64,000 nt of DNA from Yersinia massiliensis (lineage in GTDB: Bacteria; Pseudomonadota; Gammaproteobacteria; Enterobacterales; Enterobacteriaceae): positions 186,001 to 250,000 of the forward strand of contig NZ_CP028487.1 in assembly GCF_003048255.1 (NCBI RefSeq), given 5' to 3'. The translations under genes and the position numbers were made by a program. Shown one piece after another: positions 10,533-60,788 of this stretch. Under the pieces are notes generated by a model. The model saw only the letters and a program-made list of their open reading frames with translations, was not told the DNA's origin and searched no databases. Every line of letters starts with the position of its first letter. The stretch's first letter is position 1.

Positions 10533-12601
<2,069 letters not shown>

Positions 12602-12667: not shown

Positions 12668-12704
12668 AAATAAGGGCCGAAATATCATTTCGGCCCTTAT
12701 TTTC
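12668..12704. terminator. Bidirectional GGGCCG terminator between envZ and the first pilin gene
   Basis: AATAAGGGCCGAAAT and ATTTCGGCCCTTATT form a 15-bp stem around a 3-base loop, flanked by A-tract and T-tract, so it can terminate in both directions. Near copies end the cassettes at 13844-13876, 19384-19411 and 20511-20542. Confidence 0.9.
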
Positions 12705-12764: not shown

Positions 12765-13412
12765 TTAGATACCGAAAGCAAACTGCATGGTAATTGAACC
12801 ATCAATATTTGCATTTTCAGTGACTGGACCGCCCATTGTCGTTGTACCCGCGAGTGTTGGGCTAACAACCATATCAGCAGTGAAAATTTTACCGGCTTTT
12901 TGCGTGGTGGTCGTTTCAGCCCAACCAAACATATAACCTTGTTGGAAATTAGCTGAACTCACGGTAGTAAACGCGCCTGCAGAACCATTCTTATAGAAAA
13001 CAAGACTCGAGAGCCCATCAACTTTTGCGTTTTTCATTTCTACAGTATAGAAACCAATTTTTCCTGTGTTGTTGATGTTGCCCAAGCCAAAATACAATGC
13101 ACTAGAGACATCACTTCTGCTATCGCGACGATTATCTGTTGGCGTTAAATTTAAGTATGTTTCGGCATCACAGGTGGCCACCCAGCTTTTTGTCATTGGT
13201 GTCAGGGCGGTAACTGCTGTGCCAGATTTAACTTGGGACGCTGAAATTTTTCCCAAATCATAAACACCCGCATCAGGGGAAATGACAGTACAGGTTGGTA
13301 CACTCAATTTACCTTTGACCTTTAACTCAGTCGTTGGCGGCGCAGCATGGGCAGCGGTAATGCCTAAAACCAAAGAAGCTAAAACCGTCAGACCAATCAA
13401 TTGCGTTTTCAT
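12765..13412 (-). CDS. DUF1120 fimbrial subunit-like protein (cassette A)
   Basis: A 215-residue exported protein. Signal peptide MKTQLIGLTVLASLVLGITA then AHA; the mature protein starts near residue 24. It belongs to the DUF1120 group (E. coli GltF/YhcF type) found with yhc-type chaperone-usher systems. Pilin-like features are visible: an N-terminal strand TTELKVKGKLSVPTCTV with the first cysteine, a second cysteine in SWVATCDAETY (likely disulfide), and an alternating hydrophobic C-terminal strand SITMQFAFGI suited to donor-strand binding by the chaperone. It is about 60% like the cassette B/D proteins by eye. Its own promoter block lies at 13430-13610. Adhesion or pilus structure is inferred from context. 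Confidence 0.82.
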   Translation of the reverse strand: MKTQLIGLTVLASLVLGITAAHAAPPTTELKVKGKLSVPTCTVISPDAGVYDLGKISASQVKSGTAVTALTPMTKSWVATCDAETYLNLTPTDNRRDSRSDVSSALYFGLGNINNTGKIGFYTVEMKNAKVDGLSSLVFYKNGSAGAFTTVSSANFQQGYMFGWAETTTTQKAGKIFTADMVVSPTLAGTTTMGGPVTENANIDGSITMQFAFGI

Positions 13413-13503
13413 GTGTCAGAAATCCAAAATCAAAATGTAGGGTGAAGTGATGGCTCGTCTGTCAGCATGTCGATGTAAACTCTATTTTGAGTTTGACTGA
13501 AAC

Positions 13504-13517
13504 ATGATCCAGATCAG
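13504..13517. promoter_or_regulatory. FNR-like palindrome, cassette A
   Basis: ATGATCCAGATCAG fits TTGAT-N4-ATCAA with one mismatch in each half. It is 92 bases upstream of the gene start and conserved in position in cassettes B and D, where the core is the perfect palindrome TGATCTAGATCA. The regulator (FNR, CRP-like or other) is not proven. Confidence 0.4.
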
Positions 13518-13586
13518 ATTATTTCATTGGGGTGATTAAACCGTAATCAGGCATGAACGTATATCGGAATGGAAGCGGACTTGATG

Positions 13587-13600
13587 TGAGAATATTCCTA
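13587..13600. promoter_or_regulatory. RcsAB-type box, cassette A
   Basis: TGAGAATATTCCTA matches the published RcsAB box TAAGAATATTCCTA at 13 of 14 positions. It lies 175 bases upstream of the start codon at 13412, the same distance as in cassettes B and D. Confidence 0.7.
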
Positions 13601-13843
13601 CGAAACTTTTATCTTATTAAACCCATTATTATCAATGTGTTAATTGTGAATTTAATGCTCAGAAATTATCTTTTTTGATGAATCCGAGTGACGAAAAAAG
13701 TAGGAGGTGGGTATTAGTTTGCCCTACCACCATCGCGAGTCAGTTATCCTCGATATTAGGGCGGAAATTCACGCCTATCAGCATTGGTGGATTCTCTTTT
13801 ATTTGTGAAAAAAGAATGGCGTTATCAATAAAACCAAAACAAA

Positions 13844-13876
13844 AATAAGGGCCGAAATAATATTCCGGCCCTTATT
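13844..13876 (-). terminator. Terminator of cassette B
   Basis: AATAAGGGCCG...CGGCCCTTATT, an 11-bp stem with a short loop, follows the cassette B pilin gene by about 75 bases. It is nearly identical to 20511-20542 and 12668-12704. Confidence 0.85.
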
Positions 13877-13952
13877 TACTATTAATATGTATTCACGATT
13901 AACGTGTATTCACTATTAATATATATCCACTATCAATTTATCTTCGCGGTAA

Positions 13953-14591
13953 TTAGATACCGAAAGCGAAATTCATGGTCATGGAACCGTCAAGCTCTGC
14001 ATCGTCAGTGATTGGACCGCCCATGGTGGTGGTGCCAGCCAAGATTGGGCTAACCGTGATATCAGCCACAAACACTTTACCGGTGCTCTGGGTGTTAGCC
14101 GCAGATGACCAACCGGTGCGTAAGCCTGTGGTCAAGCTAGCGGTTGTTGCTGCTGCAAACGTTGATGTTGCAGAAGAGAACAAGTTGGAGGCTTTGCCGT
14201 CTACAGTGCCGTTCTTAATCAACGCAGTGTAGTAACCGATTTTACCGGTAGTGTTCACGTTGCCCAGACCGAAGTTAGTGGTGGCAACAGCACTGGCAGA
14301 TGCTGCGCGGTTATCGACTGGCGTGAAGTTCAGATAAGTATCGGCATCACAGGTCACCGTCCAAGTTTTCGTCATTGGTGTCAGTGGGGTTGTGGCTGTC
14401 CCTGATTTGACTAAAGATGAAGACAATTTACCGAAATCATAAACACCTTCATCTGGAGAAGCGACGGTGCAACTTGGAACAGTCAGTGTACCAGTGACTT
14501 TCAGTTCAGCCGTTGGTGGTGCGGCGTGTGCTACAGCCATACCCAAAACCAGAGAAGATAAAACAGTCAGACCAATCAGTTGCTTTTTCAT
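13953..14591 (-). CDS. DUF1120 fimbrial subunit-like protein (cassette B)
   Basis: A 212-residue exported protein. The start is MKKQLIGLTVLSSLVLGMAV; an in-frame upstream start at 14606 would spoil the signal peptide. Cleavage is expected after AHA (residue 23). Two cysteines (TVPSCTV and WTVTCDADTY) and the C-terminal strand SMTMNFAFGI give a pilin-like Ig fold by inference. It differs from the cassette D protein at only about four residues (an LTV/LTA change in the signal peptide and three in the stretch near TSTFAAATTASLTTG), showing a recent duplication or gene conversion. It lies directly downstream of the chaperone gene and has its own control block (14600-14780). Confidence 0.83.
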   Translation of the reverse strand: MKKQLIGLTVLSSLVLGMAVAHAAPPTAELKVTGTLTVPSCTVASPDEGVYDFGKLSSSLVKSGTATTPLTPMTKTWTVTCDADTYLNFTPVDNRAASASAVATTNFGLGNVNTTGKIGYYTALIKNGTVDGKASNLFSSATSTFAAATTASLTTGLRTGWSSAANTQSTGKVFVADITVSPILAGTTTMGGPITDDAELDGSMTMNFAFGI

Positions 14592-14681
14592 GTGTAAGAT
14601 AACCAAATTTATAATGTAGGGTAAATAAAGATTTGTCTGTCAGCATGTGGATGTAAGCTCTATTTTAAGTTTCATCAAAAC

Positions 14682-14695
14682 ATGATCTAGATCAA
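14682..14695. promoter_or_regulatory. FNR-like palindrome, cassette B
   Basis: ATGATCTAGATCAA matches TTGAT-N4-ATCAA at 9 of 10 positions and contains the 12-bp perfect palindrome TGATCTAGATCA. It stands 91 bases upstream of the start codon. Confidence 0.45.
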
Positions 14696-14765
14696 TTTAT
14701 TTCGTCGGGGGAGATTAAACAATAATCAGGCATGGGCGTATATCGGAATGGAAGTGGACTTGATG

Positions 14766-14779
14766 TCAGAATATTCTTA
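14766..14779. promoter_or_regulatory. RcsAB-type box, cassette B
   Basis: TCAGAATATTCTTA matches the RcsAB consensus at 12 of 14 positions and stands 175 bases upstream of the start codon. Confidence 0.6.
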
Positions 14780-14882
14780 CGAAATACTTTTTCTAGTAGG
14801 GGGAATATATTGGGGAATAGCGTTTAGTGATTTAAAACTCAAGGGCACCATTCTCTGGCAACCCCTGAGCATTAGACGATTA

Positions 14883-15623
14883 TTAACGTGTGACAGGAAG
14901 AGCGACTTCCGTTTGCACAAAACCATAGCGGCTCAGTGGCGTGACTTTCACAGATGTCGGTGATGACTTGATCGAGAATTGTTTGCTGGTGCCCGGCATA
15001 ATATACGGGTTACCCAACGGAACGACTTCATTACTCGGGACTAAAACTACCTGTGGCCCCAGACGAACAACATGTTTACCTGGATTTTTAATCGTCAAAT
15101 TATTCCCTGATACGGAGAAAACCAGCTCCTCCCAAGGATTTTTAATTTGTGGCACTGCGCTCGGCTGAATAAGAAAACCGATTTCCTGACGGATAGGCAT
15201 GACGGTGGCATTACCAGAGACCTGCTCAACCCCTTCAAATGCCGCTTTTAGCAATACTTCATTGTCCAGTACGGCGCCTTTTTTCAGCACGAAGTTCACT
15301 TGCTGACTTTGGCCAGCATCAATGCGTGTCACTGGTGGTGAAATCAAAATCTGCTTACTGAAATCTTTGCCATCAATATCAATCAGTTTTGTCACCAGCA
15401 AAATAGGGTTGGCGGAAGTGTTATCAATGGTAAAACTCGCACGCCCCTCGCTTTCTTTCAATATGACGGTCGTACTTTCTAATTTGAACGATGCATTAGA
15501 GGCTAGACTCCAGCAGCTCAATAGCACCAGCACATTGAAAACAAGAAACGATTTAAAGCGATTATATACCGAGGTATAGGTCACGGTATTCTCGCTGCGA
15601 TGACTGACAATGGTCTTTTTCAT
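14883..15623 (-). CDS. Periplasmic fimbrial chaperone (PapD-like)
   Basis: A 246-residue chaperone of the chaperone-usher pathway, YhcA-like by context. The start MKKTIVSHRSENTV is chosen over 15674 because the longer frame reaches back to the usher stop. A hydrophobic segment at about residues 25-42 (FLVFNVLVLLSCWSLASNAS) acts as signal peptide with a long n-region. The first Ig domain has STTVILKESEGRASFTIDNT and LLVTKLIDIDG; the G1 strand region is QSQQVNFVLKKG. The second domain has NNLTIKNPGKHVVRLG and VLVPSNEVVPLG. It caps pilin subunits and delivers them to the usher at 15680-18058, 56 bases upstream. It is followed by the cassette B pilin. Confidence 0.9.
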   Translation of the reverse strand: MKKTIVSHRSENTVTYTSVYNRFKSFLVFNVLVLLSCWSLASNASFKLESTTVILKESEGRASFTIDNTSANPILLVTKLIDIDGKDFSKQILISPPVTRIDAGQSQQVNFVLKKGAVLDNEVLLKAAFEGVEQVSGNATVMPIRQEIGFLIQPSAVPQIKNPWEELVFSVSGNNLTIKNPGKHVVRLGPQVVLVPSNEVVPLGNPYIMPGTSKQFSIKSSPTSVKVTPLSRYGFVQTEVALPVTR

Positions 15624-15679
15624 AATAAATCCTGTGTCTGGAATATCGATTAGATCTCTTTTGCTGGCCGCCACTCACA

Positions 15680-18058
15680 TTAATGACATACCGCATCAGC
15701 AACTTCATACAATGTATCTGGATCAAATTTCTCCGGCACCCCATAACTTACAATGCACTCGCCCCGGTTGGCGGCCTTAACTCGCAGCGTGGCACCAATT
15801 GCGTTGTTTTCCAACATAAAATTGCCATCTCCAATCAGCGTTCCGAGGAAGTTACCCTTATCATCCAGCACGTTTGCTCCCACTGGCAGGGCATCGCCAT
15901 TGCTGTCACGAATGGTCAGCAGCAACTGGCGTGTTTCTGTTGCCTCAAAATTACGGGTTGCCACCGTGCCGCGGGTCATCATCAAATCGGCACTGGTACT
16001 GTTGAGACGTATATTCAATGGCAATGTTTTGGTACTAATTTGGGCCTTGGATGCACTGTAAGGCATCACTGATGGCAACAGCGCTGTGCCAGCATAGTCG
16101 GTTATGGACATCCCACTGCTCGGTGATGATACCCGTAAATTTGACTGACTAGGCACGTTCACTATTGCAAAGGTGTCACCAATGGCCGATGCCGAAGTTG
16201 CAAAGGTATTGTTCGCGTAAGCCATTGAACCACTAGATGCCACATACGCTGAACGACTATTGTTATTGGCCTGAGAAATCCCACCCGCCAGTTGTGAATA
16301 GGCTGTTTTCACATTCATTGCGCCATTAACTCGTTGCTGATTATTACCGCCCGTCACCCCCACGGAATACCCTTTGTTATCACCCCAAGCCCCTTGATAA
16401 GTGCTGCCCAGCGTCGTATTACCATTATTACGTTGCATCCGGCCAGTGAGAGACCCATTACCCAGTGGCATACTGAGTCCCAAATAGACAGCATTACGCC
16501 CCTGTGAACTTGACTGAACACTCAACGTGGTGGTCACTCGGCCAAATTGTTCACTGGCGGAAAACGTATGGGAGACACTGTTCTCTGCCTGATAATACAT
16601 ATTATTAGACAAAACATAGGAAAATGCGCCCCAGCGAGGATGTGCCCAGGTCACGGCTGCTGATGTGGCATTTTTCAGTTTGCCAACGGACAGGTCAGCC
16701 AAATTATTACCGCCACTTAGGGCATTATCAGGTGACCAGTAATTGCTTGATTCGTAAACCGTCGATAAAGACGCACTCAGGTTGCCGTTAATAGACACCT
16801 GATTTTGCAATCCGAGTTGGTAACCTTGTCCGGCACCTTGGGTATTGGTATAGCTCGCGGTGGCTGAAATCCAAGCACTCTCAAACCCGCTGTATAGATT
16901 TTGCGCACTGATATTTTGGTAATCGGCAGAAAGCAGCCCAGCGGTAGTGACCTGAAATGCATTCGCCGGACTAAATGCCATCTCGCCTGTTGCCAGTAAG
17001 GGAGACTTGTTTTCACTGCCACTGAGAGTGTCGCGGTAGCGGCCCAGTGCTAGCTGGTAGGTTGTCGCTTGTTGTTCAAAATTGGGATCAAGGGCGTTCG
17101 CGACGGTAAAATGTTGCTGGGTGCCGTCTTCTTCAATCACATCAACATCCGTAGGGACACCGCTGGAGAAATTGCTGATATTGGATAATGAGAACGGGCC
17201 CGGTGCCACCACGGTGCGGTAAATAACCCGCCCACGCTGGCGAATTTCGATAGTGGCGTTGGTGTTGGCAATCCCTTCAATGGGCACAACCAGTTGGGTG
17301 TTATTGAGTTGGGCATTATCGGAATAAAGCTGGGCGCCCATCACTGGCAGACCAGAGTAAGTATTGGCGACTAGGCCAAACTCCCCCAACTGTACCACCG
17401 ACTTTAAAGATTCAACGGCGCGTAATGCGTAGGTTTCCTGATTATCATAATGACTCACCCCTTGGTTATAATTATAAGAACCTCGGTTACGCACCACCCA
17501 GTTATAAAAATTAATACCCGGCTCGAATTGCCCCTGAAATAAATTCAGGTTGTCACTGTTGTTTTCGATGCGCTGGCCGAATAAATTATAATTTAGCAAT
17601 AAGGCGTGGCCGCCCCGCTGATATTCACTTTCTTCCAGTTCAGGGTCAAAGGCTTCTTGCGGTAATGTCATTTCTACTCGGAATTGCCCAGGAAATAGCT
17701 TAACGACCACTCCAGGCCACAGAGTTTCAATATTCTCGCAGCTGTCGCCACTGTCTTTATAGTGTAACTTTAATGCCATCAGCAGTTTTCGGTCAGCACA
17801 TAGTTGACCTTCGCTACCAAAGGTCGCTTCAGTACGGTAGGTTTTACTGGCATTGATAATAATGGTGACATCATGCTGACCCGGTAAGAATTTATCAGCT
17901 CCGCTGAAGAAATCAGCTAATTCTGCTGAATAGCCTAAACCTTCCAGTGTTTTTATATCAAATGCCGCCGCGCCTTCTTTTGTCGCAGAGAATCCTGCCA
18001 CAGGAAAAAGGGAAAGCAGACATAAGGTATAAAGGAATGAACACTGGCGACTGGCCAC
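15680..18058 (-). CDS. Outer-membrane fimbrial usher
   Basis: A 792-residue usher (FimD/PapC family, YhcD-like by context), slightly shorter than the usual 820-880. The start is GTG at 18058 with an AGGA about 8 bases upstream; MASRQCSFLYTLCLLSLFPV is a good signal peptide. Visible blocks are the N-terminal periplasmic domain (FDIKTLEGLGYSAELADFF...FLPGQHDVTIIIN), the C-x-C region (LCADRK, DSCENIE), the 24-strand beta-barrel with Tyr/Asn-rich strands, the plug domain near residues 240-320 (VVPIEGIANTNATIEIRQRG, GPFSLSNIS) and the C-terminal plug-like domain (GNFLGTLIGDGNFML). It forms the secretion pore for DUF1120 subunits. It may use the promoter left by the pilin remnant at 18220-18300. 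Confidence 0.93.
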   Translation of the reverse strand: MASRQCSFLYTLCLLSLFPVAGFSATKEGAAAFDIKTLEGLGYSAELADFFSGADKFLPGQHDVTIIINASKTYRTEATFGSEGQLCADRKLLMALKLHYKDSGDSCENIETLWPGVVVKLFPGQFRVEMTLPQEAFDPELEESEYQRGGHALLLNYNLFGQRIENNSDNLNLFQGQFEPGINFYNWVVRNRGSYNYNQGVSHYDNQETYALRAVESLKSVVQLGEFGLVANTYSGLPVMGAQLYSDNAQLNNTQLVVPIEGIANTNATIEIRQRGRVIYRTVVAPGPFSLSNISNFSSGVPTDVDVIEEDGTQQHFTVANALDPNFEQQATTYQLALGRYRDTLSGSENKSPLLATGEMAFSPANAFQVTTAGLLSADYQNISAQNLYSGFESAWISATASYTNTQGAGQGYQLGLQNQVSINGNLSASLSTVYESSNYWSPDNALSGGNNLADLSVGKLKNATSAAVTWAHPRWGAFSYVLSNNMYYQAENSVSHTFSASEQFGRVTTTLSVQSSSQGRNAVYLGLSMPLGNGSLTGRMQRNNGNTTLGSTYQGAWGDNKGYSVGVTGGNNQQRVNGAMNVKTAYSQLAGGISQANNNSRSAYVASSGSMAYANNTFATSASAIGDTFAIVNVPSQSNLRVSSPSSGMSITDYAGTALLPSVMPYSASKAQISTKTLPLNIRLNSTSADLMMTRGTVATRNFEATETRQLLLTIRDSNGDALPVGANVLDDKGNFLGTLIGDGNFMLENNAIGATLRVKAANRGECIVSYGVPEKFDPDTLYEVADAVCH

Positions 18059-18219
18059 AAAGATATCCTAAATAGAGTAAGCAATTATTTATCGATAATA
18101 GTGCATCTTGATGCTTTATTTATAAAATAATAAGCGTAGTGAGAGGCTGAAATACTTATTAGCGATAGTGTGCAATCAGGGCAACTGAAGCTTTGTCGGT
18201 TAAAGAATGTGAGCTTAGA

Positions 18220-18300
18220 GAAGCGACAGTGCAACGTGTGTTACAGCCATACCCAAAATCAGAGAAGATAAGCCGTCACACCAATCAGTGGCTTTTTCAT
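18220..18300 (-). pseudogene. 5' remnant of a DUF1120 pilin gene (cassette C)
   Basis: From the ATG at 18300 the minus strand reads MKKPLIGVTAYLL then stop. The DNA matches the signal-peptide coding region of cassettes B and D, with a 2-base loss that causes the frameshift. After the alanine-rich segment it jumps to a GTTGCACTGTCGCTTC stretch, which in intact copies lies further inside the gene, so an internal deletion is also present. The rest of the gene is missing. A 13-residue leader peptide could still be translated ahead of the usher. Confidence 0.8.
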
Positions 18301-18473
18301 GTGTAAGATATCCAAAATTAAAATGTAGGGTTAAGTAGTAATTAGTCTCAATATGCTGATGTAAGATTTATTTTTTTGTTTCACTGAAACATGAGCTAAG
18401 TCTATTAATTTCGTTGGGGTGATTAGACCGCAATCAGACATGGGCGTATATCGGAATAGAAGTGGACTTGATG

Positions 18474-18487
18474 TAAGAATATTCTTA
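18474..18487. promoter_or_regulatory. RcsAB-type box, cassette C (usher upstream region)
   Basis: TAAGAATATTCTTA matches the RcsAB box at 13 of 14 positions and forms part of the perfect 16-bp palindrome GTAAGAATATTCTTAC. It lies 174 bases upstream of the remnant ATG and 416 upstream of the usher start. Confidence 0.65.
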
Positions 18488-18679
18488 CTGAATGCTATTT
18501 TATTAAAATGATATTTATCAGTGTATTACTGTCATCAGATGATGTTCTGAGCCATCACTCTTAAGAAAGCACAACTTGATAGTAAATTGCGCTAGTCCGA
18601 TAAAATGTTTCATTTTGAAGAAATTGTTTTATGTGATTCTTACACTAAATAAATCACATAAGGCTAGGCATTTTATGGC

Positions 18680-19315
18680 CTAAATACCGTAAGCGAAGCT
18701 CAAAGTCACCGACCCATCAATATTGATATTTTCAGTAATAGCGCCACCCATCGTGGCGGAACTTGCCAGTACTGGTGTGACAGTCAAATCAGCACTGAAG
18801 ACTTTGCCAGCTTTTGCCGTCGTTGCGTTTTGCGCCCAACCAAAAGGCAAATTATTCGTCAGTGTTTCTGTCGTATGGCCTCCCTGGAATCCGTTTTCTA
18901 AGTAATAAAAAAAGCTACTTTCACCATCTACCTTGGCGTTGCTCAATCCGGTCCTAAAGTAACCAATCTTCCCTGTGCCATTGACAAAACCTAACCCAAA
19001 ATTATGGATTGCCGTGGTATTGCTAACAGATGATTTTCGATTATCAGTGGGTGTGAAACTGAGATAAGTCGAGCCATCGCAGGAGATAGTCCAGGTTTTA
19101 GTGATTGTGGGTAATATCACTGAGGTCGTAGGTTGTATTGTTGCAGCTGAAATATTACCCACGTTATAAACGCCGCCATCAGGGACATTGATCGTACAAG
19201 TTGGGACCCCTATTGAACCTTTGACTTTTAATTCAGGCGTCGGTGTTGCCGCTTGCACTACCAGAGATAAAAATAACGAACTGAAAATCGTTAAATTAAC
19301 AAATTGCATTTTCAT
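18680..19315 (-). CDS. Divergent DUF1120 fimbrial subunit-like protein
   Basis: A 211-residue exported protein with signal peptide MKMQFVNLTIFSSLFLSLVV then QA. It shares the family frame: ATPTPELKVKGSIGVPTCTI at the mature N-terminus, WTISCDGSTYLSFTPTDNR, GKIGYF and the C-terminal strand SVTLSFAYGI. It is clearly more diverged than the cassette A, B and D proteins. Its upstream region (19316-19438) lacks the RcsAB/FNR-like block and holds only the terminator of cassette D. It could depend on read-through or a local promoter. It may be a minor or tip subunit, which is inference. Confidence 0.8.
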   Translation of the reverse strand: MKMQFVNLTIFSSLFLSLVVQAATPTPELKVKGSIGVPTCTINVPDGGVYNVGNISAATIQPTTSVILPTITKTWTISCDGSTYLSFTPTDNRKSSVSNTTAIHNFGLGFVNGTGKIGYFRTGLSNAKVDGESSFFYYLENGFQGGHTTETLTNNLPFGWAQNATTAKAGKVFSADLTVTPVLASSATMGGAITENINIDGSVTLSFAYGI

Positions 19316-19383
19316 AAAATTAAATTTACCCCGTTTAGCATATAACGTGGAAAGGTAAAAAGTATCTTCAGGGAAACGATAAC

Positions 19384-19411
19384 AAGGGCCGAAATAACAT
19401 TCCGGCCCTTG
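19384..19411 (-). terminator. Terminator of cassette D
   Basis: AAGGGCCG...CCGGCCCTT stem with a 10-base loop stands about 28 bases after the cassette D stop. It shares the GGGCCG core of the other cassette terminators. Confidence 0.75.
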
Positions 19412-19438
19412 CTTTCAATTCACTTGTCTTTGCGGTAA

Positions 19439-20077
19439 TTAGATACCGAAAGCGAAGTTCATGGTCATGGAACCGTCAAGCTCTGCATCGTCAGTGATTG
19501 GACCGCCCATGGTGGTGGTGCCAGCCAAGATTGGGCTCACTGTGATATCAGCCACAAACACTTTACCGGTGCTCTGGGTGTTAGCCGCAGATGACCAACC
19601 GGTGCGCAGACCTGTGGTCAGGTTAGCTGTGGTTGTCGCCGTGAAAGTTGATGTTGCAGAAGAGAACAAGTTAGACGCTTTGCCGTCTACAGTGCCGTTC
19701 TTAATCAATGCAGTGTAGTAACCGATTTTGCCGGTAGTGTTCACGTTGCCCAGACCGAAGTTAGTGGTGGCAACAGCACTGGCAGATGCTGCGCGGTTAT
19801 CGACTGGCGTGAAGTTCAAATAAGTATCAGCATCACAGGTCACCGTCCAAGTTTTTGTCATTGGTGTCAGTGGCGTTGTGGCTGTCCCTGATTTGACTAA
19901 AGATGAAGACAGTTTACCGAAATCATAAACACCTTCATCTGGAGAAGCGACGGTGCAACTTGGAACAGTCAGTGTACCAGTGACTTTCAGTTCAGCCGTT
20001 GGTGGTGCGGCATGTGCTACAGCCATGCCCAAAACCAGAGAAGATAAAGCCGTCAGACCAATCAGTTGCTTTTTCAT
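19439..20077 (-). CDS. DUF1120 fimbrial subunit-like protein (cassette D)
   Basis: A 212-residue exported protein almost identical to cassette B (about 208 of 212 residues). The start is MKKQLIGLTALSSLVLGMAV; an upstream in-frame ATG at 20098 is not used because the signal peptide begins here. The same two cysteines and SMTMNFAFGI strand are present. It has the best-matching RcsAB box of the locus (20252-20265) at 175 bases upstream. With cassette B it forms a pair of direct repeats of about 640 bp or more flanking the usher and chaperone genes. Confidence 0.83.
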   Translation of the reverse strand: MKKQLIGLTALSSLVLGMAVAHAAPPTAELKVTGTLTVPSCTVASPDEGVYDFGKLSSSLVKSGTATTPLTPMTKTWTVTCDADTYLNFTPVDNRAASASAVATTNFGLGNVNTTGKIGYYTALIKNGTVDGKASNLFSSATSTFTATTTANLTTGLRTGWSSAANTQSTGKVFVADITVSPILAGTTTMGGPITDDAELDGSMTMNFAFGI

Positions 20078-20168
20078 GTGTAAAATGTCCAAATTCATAA
20101 TGTAGGGGTCAGTAATAATTGGTCTGTCAGCATGTCAATATAAGCTCTATGTTGAGTTTTATTGAAAT

Positions 20169-20182
20169 ATGATCTAGATCAA
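20169..20182. promoter_or_regulatory. FNR-like palindrome, cassette D
   Basis: ATGATCTAGATCAA is identical to the cassette B site and stands 92 bases upstream of the start codon. Confidence 0.45.
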
Positions 20183-20251
20183 TTTATTTCGTTGGAGTGA
20201 TTAAACCTTAATAAGGCATGGGCGTATATCGGAATGGAAGTGAACTTGATG

Positions 20252-20265
20252 TAAGAATATTCCTA
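20252..20265. promoter_or_regulatory. RcsAB box, cassette D (exact consensus)
   Basis: TAAGAATATTCCTA is identical to the published 14-bp RcsAB box. It lies 175 bases upstream of the cassette D start codon. Confidence 0.75.
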
Positions 20266-20510
20266 CTGACTAATCCTGTTAATTTAAATTAATTTAATCA
20301 ATGAGTTGGGTTGAGAATGAAAGCTGTCGGCTGTCATCTTTTTTTGAATAATCCTATTGATAAAAATAATAGGAATCAGATTCCTGCCTGCCTAAAAACT
20401 ATCGCAACTCAGTCATCGTCGGTTTTAGTGGATTATTAACGGCAATATGTATTGGCGGGTTCTATTTTATTGATGAAAACAGAGTTCAGGATATTAATAA
20501 AATCAAAAGA

Positions 20511-20542
20511 TAAGGGCCGGAAATAATATCCGGCCCTTATTT
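20511..20542 (-). terminator. Terminator of remnant cassette E
   Basis: TAAGGGCCGGAAATAATATC followed by CGGCCCTTATTT gives the same stem and tail as the cassette B terminator. It now follows a gene fragment only. Confidence 0.8.
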
Positions 20543-20600
20543 ACTATTAATGTGTACTCACTATGGATGTGTATCCACTATTAATCTGTCTTTGCGGTGA

Positions 20601-20739
20601 TTAGATACCGAAAGCGAAGTTCATGGTCATTGAACCGTCAAGCTCAGCATCGTCAGTGATTGGACCGGCCATGGTGGTGGTGCCAGCCAAAATTGGGCTC
20701 ACCGTGATATCAGCCACAAACACTTTACCGGTGCTCTGG
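20601..20739 (-). pseudogene. 3' remnant of a DUF1120 pilin gene (cassette E)
   Basis: The minus strand encodes only the last 45 or so residues of a cassette B/D-type pilin (QSTGKVFVADITVSPILAG ... SMTMNFAFGI). At about 20739 the match jumps straight to the promoter-block sequence CGTATATCGGAATGGAAG. The whole 5' two-thirds of the gene and its proximal leader are deleted. The RcsAB-like box here is decayed (TAAGAATATTTTCG at 20770-20783). Confidence 0.85.
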
Positions 20740-20836
20740 ACGTATATCGGAATGGAAGCGGACTTGATGTAAGAATATTTTCGCAGAATAATTTTCTATA
20801 GAGTTGAATATGTCGAGGAATAACGTCTATTGGGCT

Positions 20837-20902: not shown

Positions 20903-22522
20903 TCAGATTTTTGGCCCTGCGCTCACTAACGCAGCCCCTGCTGGGGTATCGGTATATTTGTCAAAGTTGGTGACAAAGCGCTGCGCCAAATCTTCTGCTT
21001 TCTCTTGCCACTGCGCAATATCCGCGTAGGTATCACGTGGGTCGAGAATGGCTGGGTCGACACCCGGTAGCGCAGTTGGCACTGCCAGATCGAAGATAGG
21101 CAGAGTGAAGGTTTCAGCCTTATCGATTTCACCGCTCAGAATGGCGTCAATGATGCCACGCGTATCTTTAATGGAGATACGCTTACCTGTCCCATTCCAG
21201 CCGGTGTTAACCAGATAAGCTTGCGCGCCTACCGCTTGCATACGCTTAACCAGCACTTCAGCATATTGCGTTGGATGCAGCGATAGGAAGGCCGCGCCAA
21301 AACAGGCAGAGAAGGTTGGAGTCGGCTCAGTCACACCACGCTCAGTTCCTGCCAACTTAGCCGTAAAGCCAGACAGGAAGTGATACTGGGTCTGATTCGC
21401 GGTCAAGCGTGATACCGGTGGCAATACGCCAAAGGCATCTGCCGTCAGGAAAATAACCTTAGTGGCATGGCCCGCTTTAGAAACCGGCTTAACGATGTTT
21501 TCGATGTGGTAGATCGGGTAAGAAACACGGGTGTTTTCTGTTTTGGAACTGTCGTTGAAATCAACTGTACCATCAGCCAGTACGACCACGTTTTCCAGCA
21601 AAGCATCGCGCTTAATAGCGTGATAAATATCAGGCTCGGCTTCTTCGGATAACTTGATGGTTTTGGCGTAGCAGCCGCCTTCAAAGTTAAAGACGCCATC
21701 ATCATCCCAGCCGTGCTCATCATCACCGATTAATTTACGTTTCGGGTCAGTAGACAGTGTGGTTTTACCTGTTCCGGACAAACCGAAGAAGATAGCGACA
21801 TCGCCTTTCTCACCGACGTTGGCTGAACAGTGCATGGATGCAATGCCTTTCAACGGCAACAGGTAGTTCATCATCGAGAACATGCCTTTTTTCATTTCGC
21901 CGCCGTACCATGTGCCGCCAATGAGCTGCATACGTTCCGTCAAGTTAAAGGCAACAAAGTTTTCGGAGTTCAGGCCCTGCTCTTTCCAATCCGGGTTAGT
22001 GCATTTAGCGCCATTCATGACGATAAAATCAGGCTCAAAGTGAGCCAGTTCTTCATCTGTTGGGCGAATAAACATGTTTTTGACAAAGTGTGCCTGCCAA
22101 GCCACTTCGGTGACGAAGCGAACTTGCAAACGAGTATCGGCATTAGCTCCGCAGAAGGTATCTACGACAAACAGACGCTTACCAGACAACTGTTGAGTCA
22201 CCAGCCCTTTCAGATGGCTCCAAGTCTCTTGGCTTAACGGTTTGTTATCATTCTTACCTTTGCCCTGATCTGCCCACCACACGGTATCCTGTGTGATAGC
22301 ATCGCGGACAATGTATTTATCTTTGGGGGAGCGGCCGGTAAAGATACCGGTATCGACCGCTATTGCTCCTGTGGTGGTGAGGGTTCCTCGCTCGTATCCT
22401 TCAAGCGTGGGCTTCGTCTCTTCCTGGAACAGTAAATCATAGCTTGGGTTGTAAACAATCTCGCTGACGTTATGGATGCCATAGGCGGCGAGCTCCTGCG
22501 GGGTAATTCCTTTAACACTCAT
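20903..22522 (-). CDS. pckA: Phosphoenolpyruvate carboxykinase (ATP)
   Basis: A 539-residue cytoplasmic enzyme that converts oxaloacetate and ATP to phosphoenolpyruvate, ADP and CO2, the entry step of gluconeogenesis. The P-loop [13 protein letters not shown] lies near residue 248, and [12 protein letters not shown] near residue 62 contains the oxaloacetate-binding arginine. The Mn2+/Mg2+ site region [20 protein letters not shown] follows the P-loop. Length matches E. coli PckA (540). It is monocistronic with its own terminator, located near envZ and hslO as in other enterics. Confidence 0.98.
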
Positions 22523-24830: not shown

Positions 24831-26981
24831 TTAACGCAGGAGAGGAGGGGGCGTGAGGGTTTGGTTAAAGCAGCTGTCATAATAGCTCTGAATATTATCC
24901 ATGCGGCTACGGTTCTTCAGGATGCGCTGAATTAATAAGGTGGTGTTCACCACTAAACAGATAATCAGCGCCAACAGCAATAGGCTAGTCCCCAAATAAC
25001 GACTGAGCATCATCATATCCGGTTCGCTATGCAATGAGATATGCCGCGTACCATTCGCATCCACGGTAATATTGGTAATGATACCCTCGGCCTTGAATGG
25101 GGTATTCAGCAGTAGGCCTGAGAGCCGCTGCAATTCACGCCATTGTTCTAGGGCCGTGAAATCAAACAGTGGGACAGCAGGCGTCGGGTGATTCACCAAT
25201 TGTTTCCCTTCATCGCTAGTGATGAGGAACCCTCCTGGCGGCGGGCTGTTTAACGCCTCAGTCGCCAAATGCGTTTCACGGTAAACAAAGGATGACGTGG
25301 CGGTTTTAACCAGATTTTCTAGTGTATCGGCGCTCACGGGGCGTAACAAAACGTTCATGCCTTTCAAGGTGCCTGATTGTGCTCGTTTGACCAAGGCTGA
25401 CCAATTCTTCGCGTTACCCAAATTCACTAATGCATTCTTCAGGCGTATACAATCGCTATCTGCACCACATAACGCCTGCGTTTTTAAGACAATATCTGCG
25501 AAGTCGTTCAACAGAATCATACCGGATTTTTCGATCGCGGTTGCCAACTGCGGGTTGACATTAGCGTCGGTGCCTTGGGGATGTAACTGATGACTAACGG
25601 TCGCCATCAACGCCGCGGCTTTTTCAATCGTCTCAGACTCAGGTAATGGCAGAGGAGCCGCGTTATTCCAATAGATTCCGGAGCAATCAAAGGGGGTAAA
25701 TACGAAGTTATGGGGGTTCTGTGAATTTGGCGGCACGTAGCACATGCCTGTTCCCTGCGCTTTTAGCATATCGCCAATATGCAATGGCATTTTTTCTAGA
25801 GCTTCAACACTGGTGACCTGCTGGCTCTGCGCGCCTTGTAGCCAAGCGACGCTCAATTTTAGCGGTAAGCCAAGCGGTACATAGATTAGTAAGAGTGCCA
25901 TTACCAGCAAGGAGCCCGCCATCAGCGCCAGATTTTTCCCCCAACGTTGTAGTGGAAAATGTTTCATTTCATCGTGCAAGGATAGGAAGCGCCCTTGGCG
26001 GACTACCTGGCGGTTAAGGTAGATATCAATATTGGTTTTTTTACCCAAGTCATGGGCGAAATAAGGCCCCCAATGTGCCGGATAAATCAGGTCGACAATC
26101 CCAAGAGAGATATTGTTCATCTGCCCCTGATTGGATTCGCCAAATAGTCCCCAGCGTTTGGGAGTCCCACTCAAGCAATGGACTTCGCGCAAATCTTTTT
26201 CTGATAACGGTCGAAACATATTCCAGCATGCCCAGCCCGTTAATGTTGCCGCGATAATCACGAGCCACGGCAGAACGACGGCAGGCCCGATCAGGGCGAA
26301 AAACAGCAAAAGCATTGCCAGACAAATGGCCAAGGCTTCTTTTAAGCCATTTGCACTATGCAGCGCATATTCTTCGGCCGTTTCCTTGCGGATATTCAAT
26401 AGTTCAATATGTTCACTGTCCGCTTTTCGAATGGATGCATTTTGCGCGGTAGAGGGCAAAATAGGCTGATAGAGGCTTTCGGGTTGATGATCTTTCAGGG
26501 TATGGCCGTTAAGTGAAATCACTAACGGAATGGTCTGAGTTTGGATAAATTCGACATCATTATCCTGAGTAATGTATTGCTCCCATGACACCGGCAAATG
26601 GACTTCAATTGAATCAAGGTAATAGCGCCATTTATTGGGTTCATCGCTTGCCACACCGTAGCGAGTAATCGCGCGCGATACGGAGTAAACCTTATCACTC
26701 TGGGGGGTGAGAACGAGCTTTGCGGGCGCTAGATCGCGATTGGTCAGGGTGTTGGGATCAAAGGTTGTTAGCGTTTTGAAGCCTGTCTTCTCGTCTTGCT
26801 GGCTGAGTAGATAATTCTCAATATTAACGCGTTCTTCCGGTGTTAGTGTGCGGTGCGTGGGTTTCACAAATGGCTGTATTGCGGCTACGGGTAGGCGAGG
26901 GCGGAATTTTAACCACCAAAGTAAGCCTACTGCGATCAGACTGGTCAACAGTAAGGCCAATATTAAAACTATTGTGCTCAT
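24831..26981 (-). CDS. igaA: Inner-membrane Rcs phosphorelay inhibitor IgaA (YrfF/UmoB)
   Basis: A 716-residue membrane protein, close to the usual 710. The N-terminal segment VLILALLLTSLIAVGLLWWL is a membrane helix; a second pair lies near residues 205-260 (AICLAMLLLFFALIGPAVVL), a third near 345-370 (LALMAGSLLVMALLLIYVPL) and the last near 660-680. A long periplasmic domain (residues 370-650) carries four cysteines (GTGMCYVPP, FDCSGI, LCGADSDCIRL). IgaA restrains RcsD in the Rcs phosphorelay until RcsF signals envelope stress. It is the first gene of the run leading to hslO. This link is notable because RcsAB boxes occur in the fimbrial locus 5-13 kb away. Confidence 0.95.
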   Translation of the reverse strand: MSTIVLILALLLTSLIAVGLLWWLKFRPRLPVAAIQPFVKPTHRTLTPEERVNIENYLLSQQDEKTGFKTLTTFDPNTLTNRDLAPAKLVLTPQSDKVYSVSRAITRYGVASDEPNKWRYYLDSIEVHLPVSWEQYITQDNDVEFIQTQTIPLVISLNGHTLKDHQPESLYQPILPSTAQNASIRKADSEHIELLNIRKETAEEYALHSANGLKEALAICLAMLLLFFALIGPAVVLPWLVIIAATLTGWACWNMFRPLSEKDLREVHCLSGTPKRWGLFGESNQGQMNNISLGIVDLIYPAHWGPYFAHDLGKKTNIDIYLNRQVVRQGRFLSLHDEMKHFPLQRWGKNLALMAGSLLVMALLLIYVPLGLPLKLSVAWLQGAQSQQVTSVEALEKMPLHIGDMLKAQGTGMCYVPPNSQNPHNFVFTPFDCSGIYWNNAAPLPLPESETIEKAAALMATVSHQLHPQGTDANVNPQLATAIEKSGMILLNDFADIVLKTQALCGADSDCIRLKNALVNLGNAKNWSALVKRAQSGTLKGMNVLLRPVSADTLENLVKTATSSFVYRETHLATEALNSPPPGGFLITSDEGKQLVNHPTPAVPLFDFTALEQWRELQRLSGLLLNTPFKAEGIITNITVDANGTRHISLHSEPDMMMLSRYLGTSLLLLALIICLVVNTTLLIQRILKNRSRMDNIQSYYDSCFNQTLTPPPLLR

Positions 26982-60086: not shown

Positions 60087-60788
60087 TCACGACATATTCT
60101 TTTCATCACAGGCCATCGCTGCTAAGACAAAAGATAAATGGACAATGGCGTGGTTAAAGAACTGGGTCGGTGAATCGTCCTCGCTCGCAGCCCCTTCAGG
60201 GGGCGCTAGAAAGCCCAATTTGTTCATCACACTGCGTTTATGGTAGCTGATGGTTTTGTTGCTCAAACACAGGTAATCGGCGATAGCGTTGTTTGACCGC
60301 CCCCGCAGCAACAGGGTCAATATCATCCGCTCCTGATAAGTCAATCTCACCGGCTGTCTCCATTTGGGGTACAGTCGCGGGAAGAAAGCGGTGTTTATCT
60401 GTGTGATAAATTCACTCAGGGGAGCCTGCCGAGCTATCACGGCACACACCTGGCTGACGTGATAGAAATATTGCCTCAACAGACGAACACAAAACGCCTC
60501 TGCGATAATGATGACTCGGCAGCGGGGATAGTGTTCGCGTAAATGACTGATCCTATGGCTCAGGCTGATATCGGCGGTGGCATCCCTGTTCTGGAGATTG
60601 AGGATAATCAGGTGCGTGTCCGGAAAACGCTGCAACGGCCGATCACAGTCGGCTAGGGTAGCAACACTGGCCACCACGGTAGCCGGTGAGGCTTTTGATG
60701 AATGCGTGAGTATGTGTTTCAGGCTCCCGCGGGTAAACACGCAAGGGTGCTGAATAATCACCTGTTTTTTCTCTGTGGCGCTGGCCAT
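60087..60788 (-). CDS. LuxR-type HTH regulator with atypical N-terminal domain
   Basis: A 233-residue regulator. The C-terminal GerE/LuxR helix-turn-helix is clear: RLTYQERMILTLLLRGRSNN, then AIADYLCLSNKTISYHKRSV with MNKLG (about residues 147-193). The N-terminal 130 residues look receiver-like (HLIILNLQNRD, CRVIIIAEAF) but lack a normal phospho-acceptor pocket, a layout shared with RcsA, BglJ and MatA-type auxiliary regulators. The tail after the HTH (EGAASEDDSPTQFFNHAIVH) is unusual. It lies downstream of the adhesin array on the same strand. Control of the array is an inference. It is not a known named protein to me. Confidence 0.8.
   Translation of the reverse strand: MASATEKKQVIIQHPCVFTRGSLKHILTHSSKASPATVVASVATLADCDRPLQRFPDTHLIILNLQNRDATADISLSHRISHLREHYPRCRVIIIAEAFCVRLLRQYFYHVSQVCAVIARQAPLSEFITQINTAFFPRLYPKWRQPVRLTYQERMILTLLLRGRSNNAIADYLCLSNKTISYHKRSVMNKLGFLAPPEGAASEDDSPTQFFNHAIVHLSFVLAAMACDEKNMS

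Follow-up and report, generated by a model that had tools for sequence, protein, structure and literature searches.

In the genus Yersinia, the pilin genes of the DUF1120 family (PF06551) very likely carry, as a standing element of their promoters, a predicted binding site for RcsB paired with RcsA or with a different protein of the LuxR type. The element was studied from a 64,000-nucleotide (nt) stretch of a Yersinia massiliensis genome (C1:186001-250000, hereafter the window; the genome has 5,164,900 bases in three contigs, of which C2 has 121,622 bases). A DUF1120 chaperone-usher cluster in this window consists of four units, A to D, all on the minus strand and each headed by one 14-base-pair (bp) box. 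A preliminary description of this DNA had placed the chaperone-usher system in the Rcs regulon. At the level of sequence, we found support for this placement in the genome controls, in the match of the boxes to the consensus, and in their position, since diverged paralogues in other species retain the box at an almost constant distance.

The window boxes fit the RcsAB consensus TaAGaatatTCcta with zero to two mismatches (PMC4325325, where capitals mark the most conserved positions; papers cited here by PMC number are represented by excerpts of their text). As the preliminary description had stated, the box of unit D is identical to the published sequence, TAAGAATATTCCTA, and close variants head units A, B and C with one, two and one mismatches; a fifth copy, which it had called decayed, has four. 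The unit C box, TAAGAATATTCTTA, is identical to the Yersinia consensus TAAGAAT-ATTCTTA (PMC4381331). Between the box edge nearest the gene and the A of the start codon (13587-13412, 14766-14591, 18474-18300 and 20252-20077), the spacing is 175, 175, 174 and 175 nt, in agreement with the 174-175 bases given before; the part of that claim that did not hold concerns unit C, where the ATG opens a 13-codon remnant and no intact pilin. A scan of the window at up to three mismatches gave 13 strand-matches against 4.65 expected, with a maximum of 11 in 100 shuffles. Because the promoter from box to ATG was duplicated together with the cassettes (repeat families D4 and D6), the four window boxes are not independent, and independent evidence therefore has to come from other loci and species.

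Throughout the 5.16-Mb genome, the exact TAAGAATATTCCTA occurs three times, each time in a DUF1120 promoter (unit D and two on C2). At one mismatch or fewer there are 18 strand-matches at 15 places, compared with none for a reversed control pattern, and seven of these places are DUF1120 promoters, three in the window and four on C2. A random scatter of equally good matches, which the preliminary description had named as refuting its inference, was not seen. Two distant DUF1120 paralogues of the same genome (C1:2806111 and C1:3515316) have CAAGAAAATTCCTA and TGAGAAAATTCCTA at the expected place. Among the eight remaining places, boxes lie 253 nt upstream of flhD (150.2 bits over a cut-off of 90), 458 nt upstream of a BexC/CtrB/KpsE-like capsule-export gene (426.5 bits, just below the cut-off of 437.5), and 131 nt and 94 nt upstream of two GGDEF genes, all kinds of genes already linked to Rcs. 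Others lie 583 nt upstream of a type-1-like pilin gene (below its family cut-off; another open reading frame (ORF) begins 117 nt away in the opposite direction), 431 nt upstream of a LuxR-type gene, and 211 nt upstream of a gene that looks to us like an MFS transporter; one of the eight places falls within a short ORF. In the 25 genus genomes, 153 strand-matches stand against 25 for the reversed control (summed by hand). Four exact matches in other genomes of the genus (L164-L167) are not before DUF1120 genes, one being 209 nt ahead of a secreted-looking ORF of 281 amino acids (aa) and three having no clear target; exact boxes in the genus therefore do not all mark DUF1120 genes.

Two of the places outside the DUF1120 family have neighbourhoods of their own. 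One is another chaperone-usher-like operon (L032:2437-7873), whose last gene encodes a PAS-GGDEF protein and has the one-mismatch box 94 nt ahead of it. At the other, the LuxR-type regulator gene (L031:2890-3597) adjoins an 817-aa autotransporter-like ORF, and the box 431 nt upstream is the perfect palindrome TAGGAATATTCCTA.

A profile of seven DUF1120 proteins found 82 matches in 18 of the 25 genus genomes. The positional footprint uses the 68 near-full-length matches, with 14 partial or weak ones left out, and divides them into 51 lead genes, whose upstream 300 nt contain no other DUF1120 gene, and 17 internal genes, whose upstream 300 nt do. The leads comprise 47 core and four distant members (E 1e-19 to 6e-8); one core lead (G014:C6:236830), preceded by a run of N, was excluded, leaving 46 readable. 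The box is present at up to three mismatches in 44 of the 46, at up to two in 35 and at up to one in 22, with its left edge 159-203 nt ahead of the start, and no footprint member has it closer than ~145 nt to the ATG. In four equally wide ranges on either side, it was found in 0, 0, 2 and 0 of the 46 core leads, and none of the 17 operon-internal genes had it in any range tried. Related promoters are not independent, hence we also report collapsed sets and clusters: when promoters more than 90% alike were collapsed, the box was found in 32 of 34, and blastn grouped the 51 leads into 12 clusters, nine of them core, of which eight have the box, with shuffle frequencies of 0 to 0.0175 for their representatives.

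The 32 boxed non-redundant promoters all have a G at position 4 and the pair TC at positions 10-11, 29 of them have the first T, and position 3 is divided between A (19) and G (13), counts that are partly built in by the selection of these promoters at up to three mismatches. The excerpts of PMC4325325 mark the invariant G4 and TC10-11 with their most conserved positions. On the gene side, the box is directly followed by a more weakly conserved tail, with C in 32 of 32 promoters and then often AAGTC and T/C-rich positions. This tail is a possible second protein contact.

The mechanism that we propose begins with a perturbed envelope, which would act through the Rcs phosphorelay, held down by IgaA, and lead phosphorylated RcsB to bind the box; transcription of the pilin, usher and chaperone genes would then be altered together. 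RcsB is intact in this genome (L038:1054-1707, 217 aa, NF008098 with 455.1 bits over a cut-off of 235). The igaA gene is located in the window (24831-26981, Pfam IgaA 1166 bits); the intact box closest to it is 4.6 kb away, and the preliminary description had given about 5 kb to the nearest cassette. A tblastn search with IgaA of 18 loci, whose flanks are mostly ~7 kb or less, gave a match only in L049, a Y. massiliensis locus with the same insertion site. On the DNA covered by these flanks, we rejected the closeness of igaA as a functional link, and the earlier hint drawn from it is not supported; the closeness looks incidental.

Several observations speak against a standing RcsAB element that switches these genes on. 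The best RcsA candidate (L099:1459-2085), aligned to positions 1-191 of the 207 in the profile, reached 57.7-57.8 bits against a cut-off of 162, which falls short of establishing RcsA, over some other protein, as the partner of RcsB. Two of the 46 core leads are without the box, with five (G011:C1:2323798) and four (G020:C95:326) mismatches, as are all four distant leads (G009, G015, G016 and G021), and the second-largest cluster has eleven promoters at up to three mismatches, eight of which have exactly three. Promoter-like matches are no more frequent in the window than chance predicts (17 found, 17.8 expected), and one of them, in unit D (20282-20254), would have its −10 element within the box, in keeping with repression. 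In Yersinia, RcsAB represses hmsT and hmsHFRS by binding over the core promoter (PMC4381331).

Repression is the strongest alternative. RcsB, with RcsA, would repress the DUF1120 pilin genes and turn adhesion off under envelope stress, which we regard as plausible rather than probable. Besides the hms genes and the overlap in unit D, it has a counterpart in Proteus mirabilis, where Rcs represses mrpA, pmfA and ucaA (PMC7917084). However, steric blocking from the position of the box would need untranslated leaders about as long as its minimum distance from the ATG throughout the footprint. We lean towards activation, or relief of silencing, by a distally bound dimer, because the box is far upstream, well ahead of an FNR/CRP-like palindrome (TTGATCTAGATCAT). 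This palindrome is a second element, frequent but not universal: at up to two mismatches it is present in 21 of the 34 non-redundant promoters at −112 to −70, whereas an equally wide control range has it in 1 of 34, and the box is ~60-95 nt upstream of it. A −10 hexamer, TACAAT or TATATT, was found 32-34 nt from the palindrome centre in some promoters only, and a transcription start is therefore not claimed. The distance of the box from the ATG would fit a distal activator or anti-silencer such as RcsB at hmsC or BglJ-RcsB at bgl better than it would fit blocking of the core promoter of the hmsT and hmsHFRS kind. In Y. pestis, the hmsC box is 59 bp upstream of the start and is required for activation by RcsB (PMC4325325).

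It is also conceivable, but in our judgement unlikely, that the main reader of the box is a different LuxR-type regulator, similar to EcpR/MatA, BglJ or the plasmid LuxR protein, with or without RcsB, and that Rcs is not the main input. LuxR-type regulators share the DNA-binding domain type of RcsB, and some of them, BglJ, MatA and GadE, pair with it (PMC7917084); the genome has 32 GerE-domain matches, and in the plasmid cluster a LuxR-type gene (L027:11217-11630, with an in-frame stop upstream) stands behind another box copy. We searched with the 137-aa plasmid piece in the genome itself and the loci, and with a hidden Markov model of 22 helix-turn-helix segments of this genome in the ORFs of 28 sources. 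Of the 15 named loci L048-L062, two (L050 and L059) have LuxR-type ORFs, as does the plasmid locus L027; there was none in the window cluster or in the DNA covered around the other 13 loci, so that the box has no conserved companion regulator encoded nearby. A conserved local LuxR regulator as its reader was thus rejected. The presence of such ORFs near few DUF1120 loci points to a global regulator, and the same 14-mer also stands ahead of flhD and further Rcs-type genes, which favours RcsB as the reader.

The LuxR-type gene of the plasmid locus, with its in-frame stop (L027:11217-11798, minus strand), lies behind a truncated copy of the boxed promoter (box at 11944, three mismatches). Another LuxR/GerE-domain gene is in the window (60087-60788, minus strand), ~40 kb off the cluster.

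The box could further be a passenger, that is, the edge of a duplicated cassette or a recombination junction with no regulatory role. The window boxes were indeed copied along with their promoters, and the similarity between several of these promoters stops near the box. However, unit A and the plasmid cassette p2 are similar past the box, and single genes elsewhere, whose promoters are not joined by blastn, hold it at the same place. Moreover, the box outlasts the decay of the leading pilin at three usher operons: in the window, G011 and G010, this pilin is reduced to a 13-codon start, a 3' part only, and a 5' part with three stops, respectively, and a box with at most one mismatch still heads the usher operon. 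On C2, the pilin ahead of the usher is intact. In Y. alsatica, Y. aldovae and Y. thracica, one box heads a pilin-pilin-usher-chaperone series (with three mismatches in Y. thracica), and the box is present with one or two mismatches at five single-DUF1120 loci (L056, L058, L059, L060 and L061), where a search for usher and chaperone genes found none in the 7.5-14.6 kb around the pilin gene. The passenger explanation is therefore very improbable. Chance matches of an A/T-rich 14-mer in AT-rich intergenic DNA do arise at up to three mismatches, as the expectation for the window indicates, but as an explanation they are refuted by the footprint of positions and by the controls, both within the genome and across the genus, which leave them practically no probability.

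Beyond the RcsB site itself, we tentatively suggest a repertoire regulon specific to Yersinia. Usher operons, single-pilin cassettes, plasmid copies and stand-alone pilins share the box at the same place; envelope stress might switch a large set of alternative subunits along with the few assembly machines, or the single one, and a cell could remodel one pilus using subunits whose genes lie at other loci. On this view, the ancestor of the genus would have acquired the box, which then persisted as the promoters diverged. In a sample of 392 genomes drawn from the family, which is thin outside Yersinia, 12 genomes match the DUF1120 profile at E <= 1e-30, and eight of them belong to four other genera. 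We examined 17 of the 19 matches in these eight: the best box within 420 nt has at least four mismatches, save one with three at −276 from the match start. The best box has six mismatches in Serratia oryzae and five to seven in the non-enterobacterial matches (L057, L063-L066). Since the box is absent at this place in relatives from other genera, its link to DUF1120 genes looks like a gain within Yersinia.

The cluster in the window lies between envZ (11249-12601) and pckA (20903-22522), an insertion site shared with the Y. massiliensis loci L048 and L049, and the flanking proteins are 100% (OmpR and EnvZ) and 99.6% (PckA) identical to those of Y. massiliensis CCUG 53443. Pilin (PF06551), usher (PF00577/PF13953/PF13954) and chaperone (PF00345) genes are co-located, with all domains over their cut-offs. 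Unit C runs box, decayed pilin start, usher, chaperone, and unit D runs box, pilin, second DUF1120 gene. A profile of seven DUF1120 family members weakly matches a fimbrial protein structure (7lhi, E 0.00023). Hairpins with a GGCCG stem occur downstream of several pilin genes; a terminator-like scan of the cluster gave seven in total against a chance mean of 7.9, and two of the four hairpins listed with unit B are in the scan list.

Features of the DUF1120 cluster in the window (ATG distances are from the near edge of the box)
Feature	Position	Strand	Basis
DUF1120 pilin, unit A	12765..13412	-	PF06551 over cut-off
FNR/CRP-like palindrome, two mismatches, unit A	13504..13517	-	pattern search
RcsAB-type box, unit A, TGAGAATATTCCTA, one mismatch, 175 nt ahead of ATG 13412	13587..13600	.	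pattern scan
Terminator-like hairpin with T-rich tail, 3' of unit B	13843..13877	-	alike hairpins near 12668-12703, 19378-19415 and 20510-20540
DUF1120 pilin, unit B	13953..14591	-	PF06551 over cut-off
FNR/CRP-like palindrome TTGATCTAGATCAT, unit B	14682..14695	-	pattern search
RcsAB-type box, unit B, TCAGAATATTCTTA, two mismatches, 175 nt ahead of ATG 14591	14766..14779	.	pattern scan
PapD-type chaperone gene, unit C	14883..15674	-	NF007392, 303.8 bits over cut-off 183
Outer-membrane usher gene, unit C	15680..18058	-	PF00577, 226.6 bits
Decayed pilin leader ahead of usher gene, 13 codons then stop	18262..18300	-	sequence reading, coordinates approximate
RcsAB-type box, unit C, TAAGAATATTCTTA, one mismatch, 174 nt ahead of remnant ATG 18300	18474..18487	.	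pattern scan
DUF1120 pilin-like gene, 211 aa, second gene of unit D, without own box	18680..19315	-	domain search and footprint table
DUF1120 pilin, first gene of unit D	19439..20077	-	PF06551 over cut-off
FNR/CRP-like palindrome TTGATCTAGATCAT, unit D	20169..20182	-	pattern search
RcsAB-type box, unit D, exact TAAGAATATTCCTA, no mismatch, 175 nt ahead of ATG 20077	20252..20265	.	pattern scan
3' remnant of a further pilin gene	20590..20745	-	47 codons, 94% identical to pilin B
Decayed box TAAGAATATTTTCG, four mismatches, adjoining the pilin 3' remnant, repeat family D6	20770..20783	.	sequence reading

The plasmid-like contig C2 contains, at 98000-117900 (L027), two DUF1120 cassettes arranged as an inverted duplicate that flanks one usher-chaperone pair. 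The contig also has a RepE-like gene under its cut-off and arsenic-resistance-like genes, and transposase ORFs of the IS6/IS240 family are near the cassettes. Similar DUF1120 DNA is present on two PLSDB plasmids, from Y. massiliensis (NZ_CP054046.1) and Y. hibernica (NZ_CP032488.1).

Genes for biofilm polysaccharide, cyclic di-GMP (c-di-GMP), secretion and motility are the main ones for which the Rcs relay is known in Yersinia. The comparative evidence places an entire family of chaperone-usher pilins among the likely targets of this envelope-stress relay, the DUF1120 pili gain a testable condition for their expression, and Yersinia cells probably adjust their repertoire of these pili under envelope stress. 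Many promoters of one genus with one box at one distance also make an unusually clean natural experiment. The literature searched has almost nothing in print on DUF1120 pili, with the term present in a single paper, on a cysteine database, and the excerpts of its open-access papers mention neither DUF1120 nor a link of it to Rcs; subscription journals, including several Yersinia Rcs transcriptome studies, were outside that search.

The best NCBIfam relatives of the pilin and usher are the Salmonella and E. coli DUF1120 fimbrial systems PRK15302/PRK15303/PRK15304, all under their cut-offs, which we take to be Stj-type. For the mat (ECP) fimbriae of E. coli, the partner regulator is encoded with the fimbrial operon. 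As in our reading of the DUF1120 genes, that fimbrial operon is activated through an RcsB heterodimer, MatA(EcpR)-RcsB (PMC7917084); unlike such self-regulated fimbriae, the DUF1120 loci are without a conserved adjoining LuxR-type regulator gene. The mrp, pmf and uca fimbriae of Proteus mirabilis are also Rcs-controlled chaperone-usher systems, but with the sign opposite to the one we favour (PMC7917084). At E. coli bgl, BglJ-RcsB bound upstream relieves H-NS repression, and Crp-cAMP is the main activator (PMC9499468). In 21 of the 34 DUF1120 promoters, an FNR/CRP-like palindrome likewise follows the box, whereas the genes differ, and the DUF1120 loci gave no evidence of H-NS or of a BglJ-like partner. 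The closest parallel in the genus is hmsCDE/hmsT/hmsHFRS, under RcsAB control through the same 14-bp box, which at hmsC precedes the −35 element and without which RcsB does not activate (PMC4325325, PMC4381331). The hms targets are c-di-GMP and exopolysaccharide genes, whereas the DUF1120 targets would be pilin, usher and chaperone units, with the promoters of one family boxed at many loci of one genome. The regulation would be of a known kind, acting on a new and unusually consistent set of targets.

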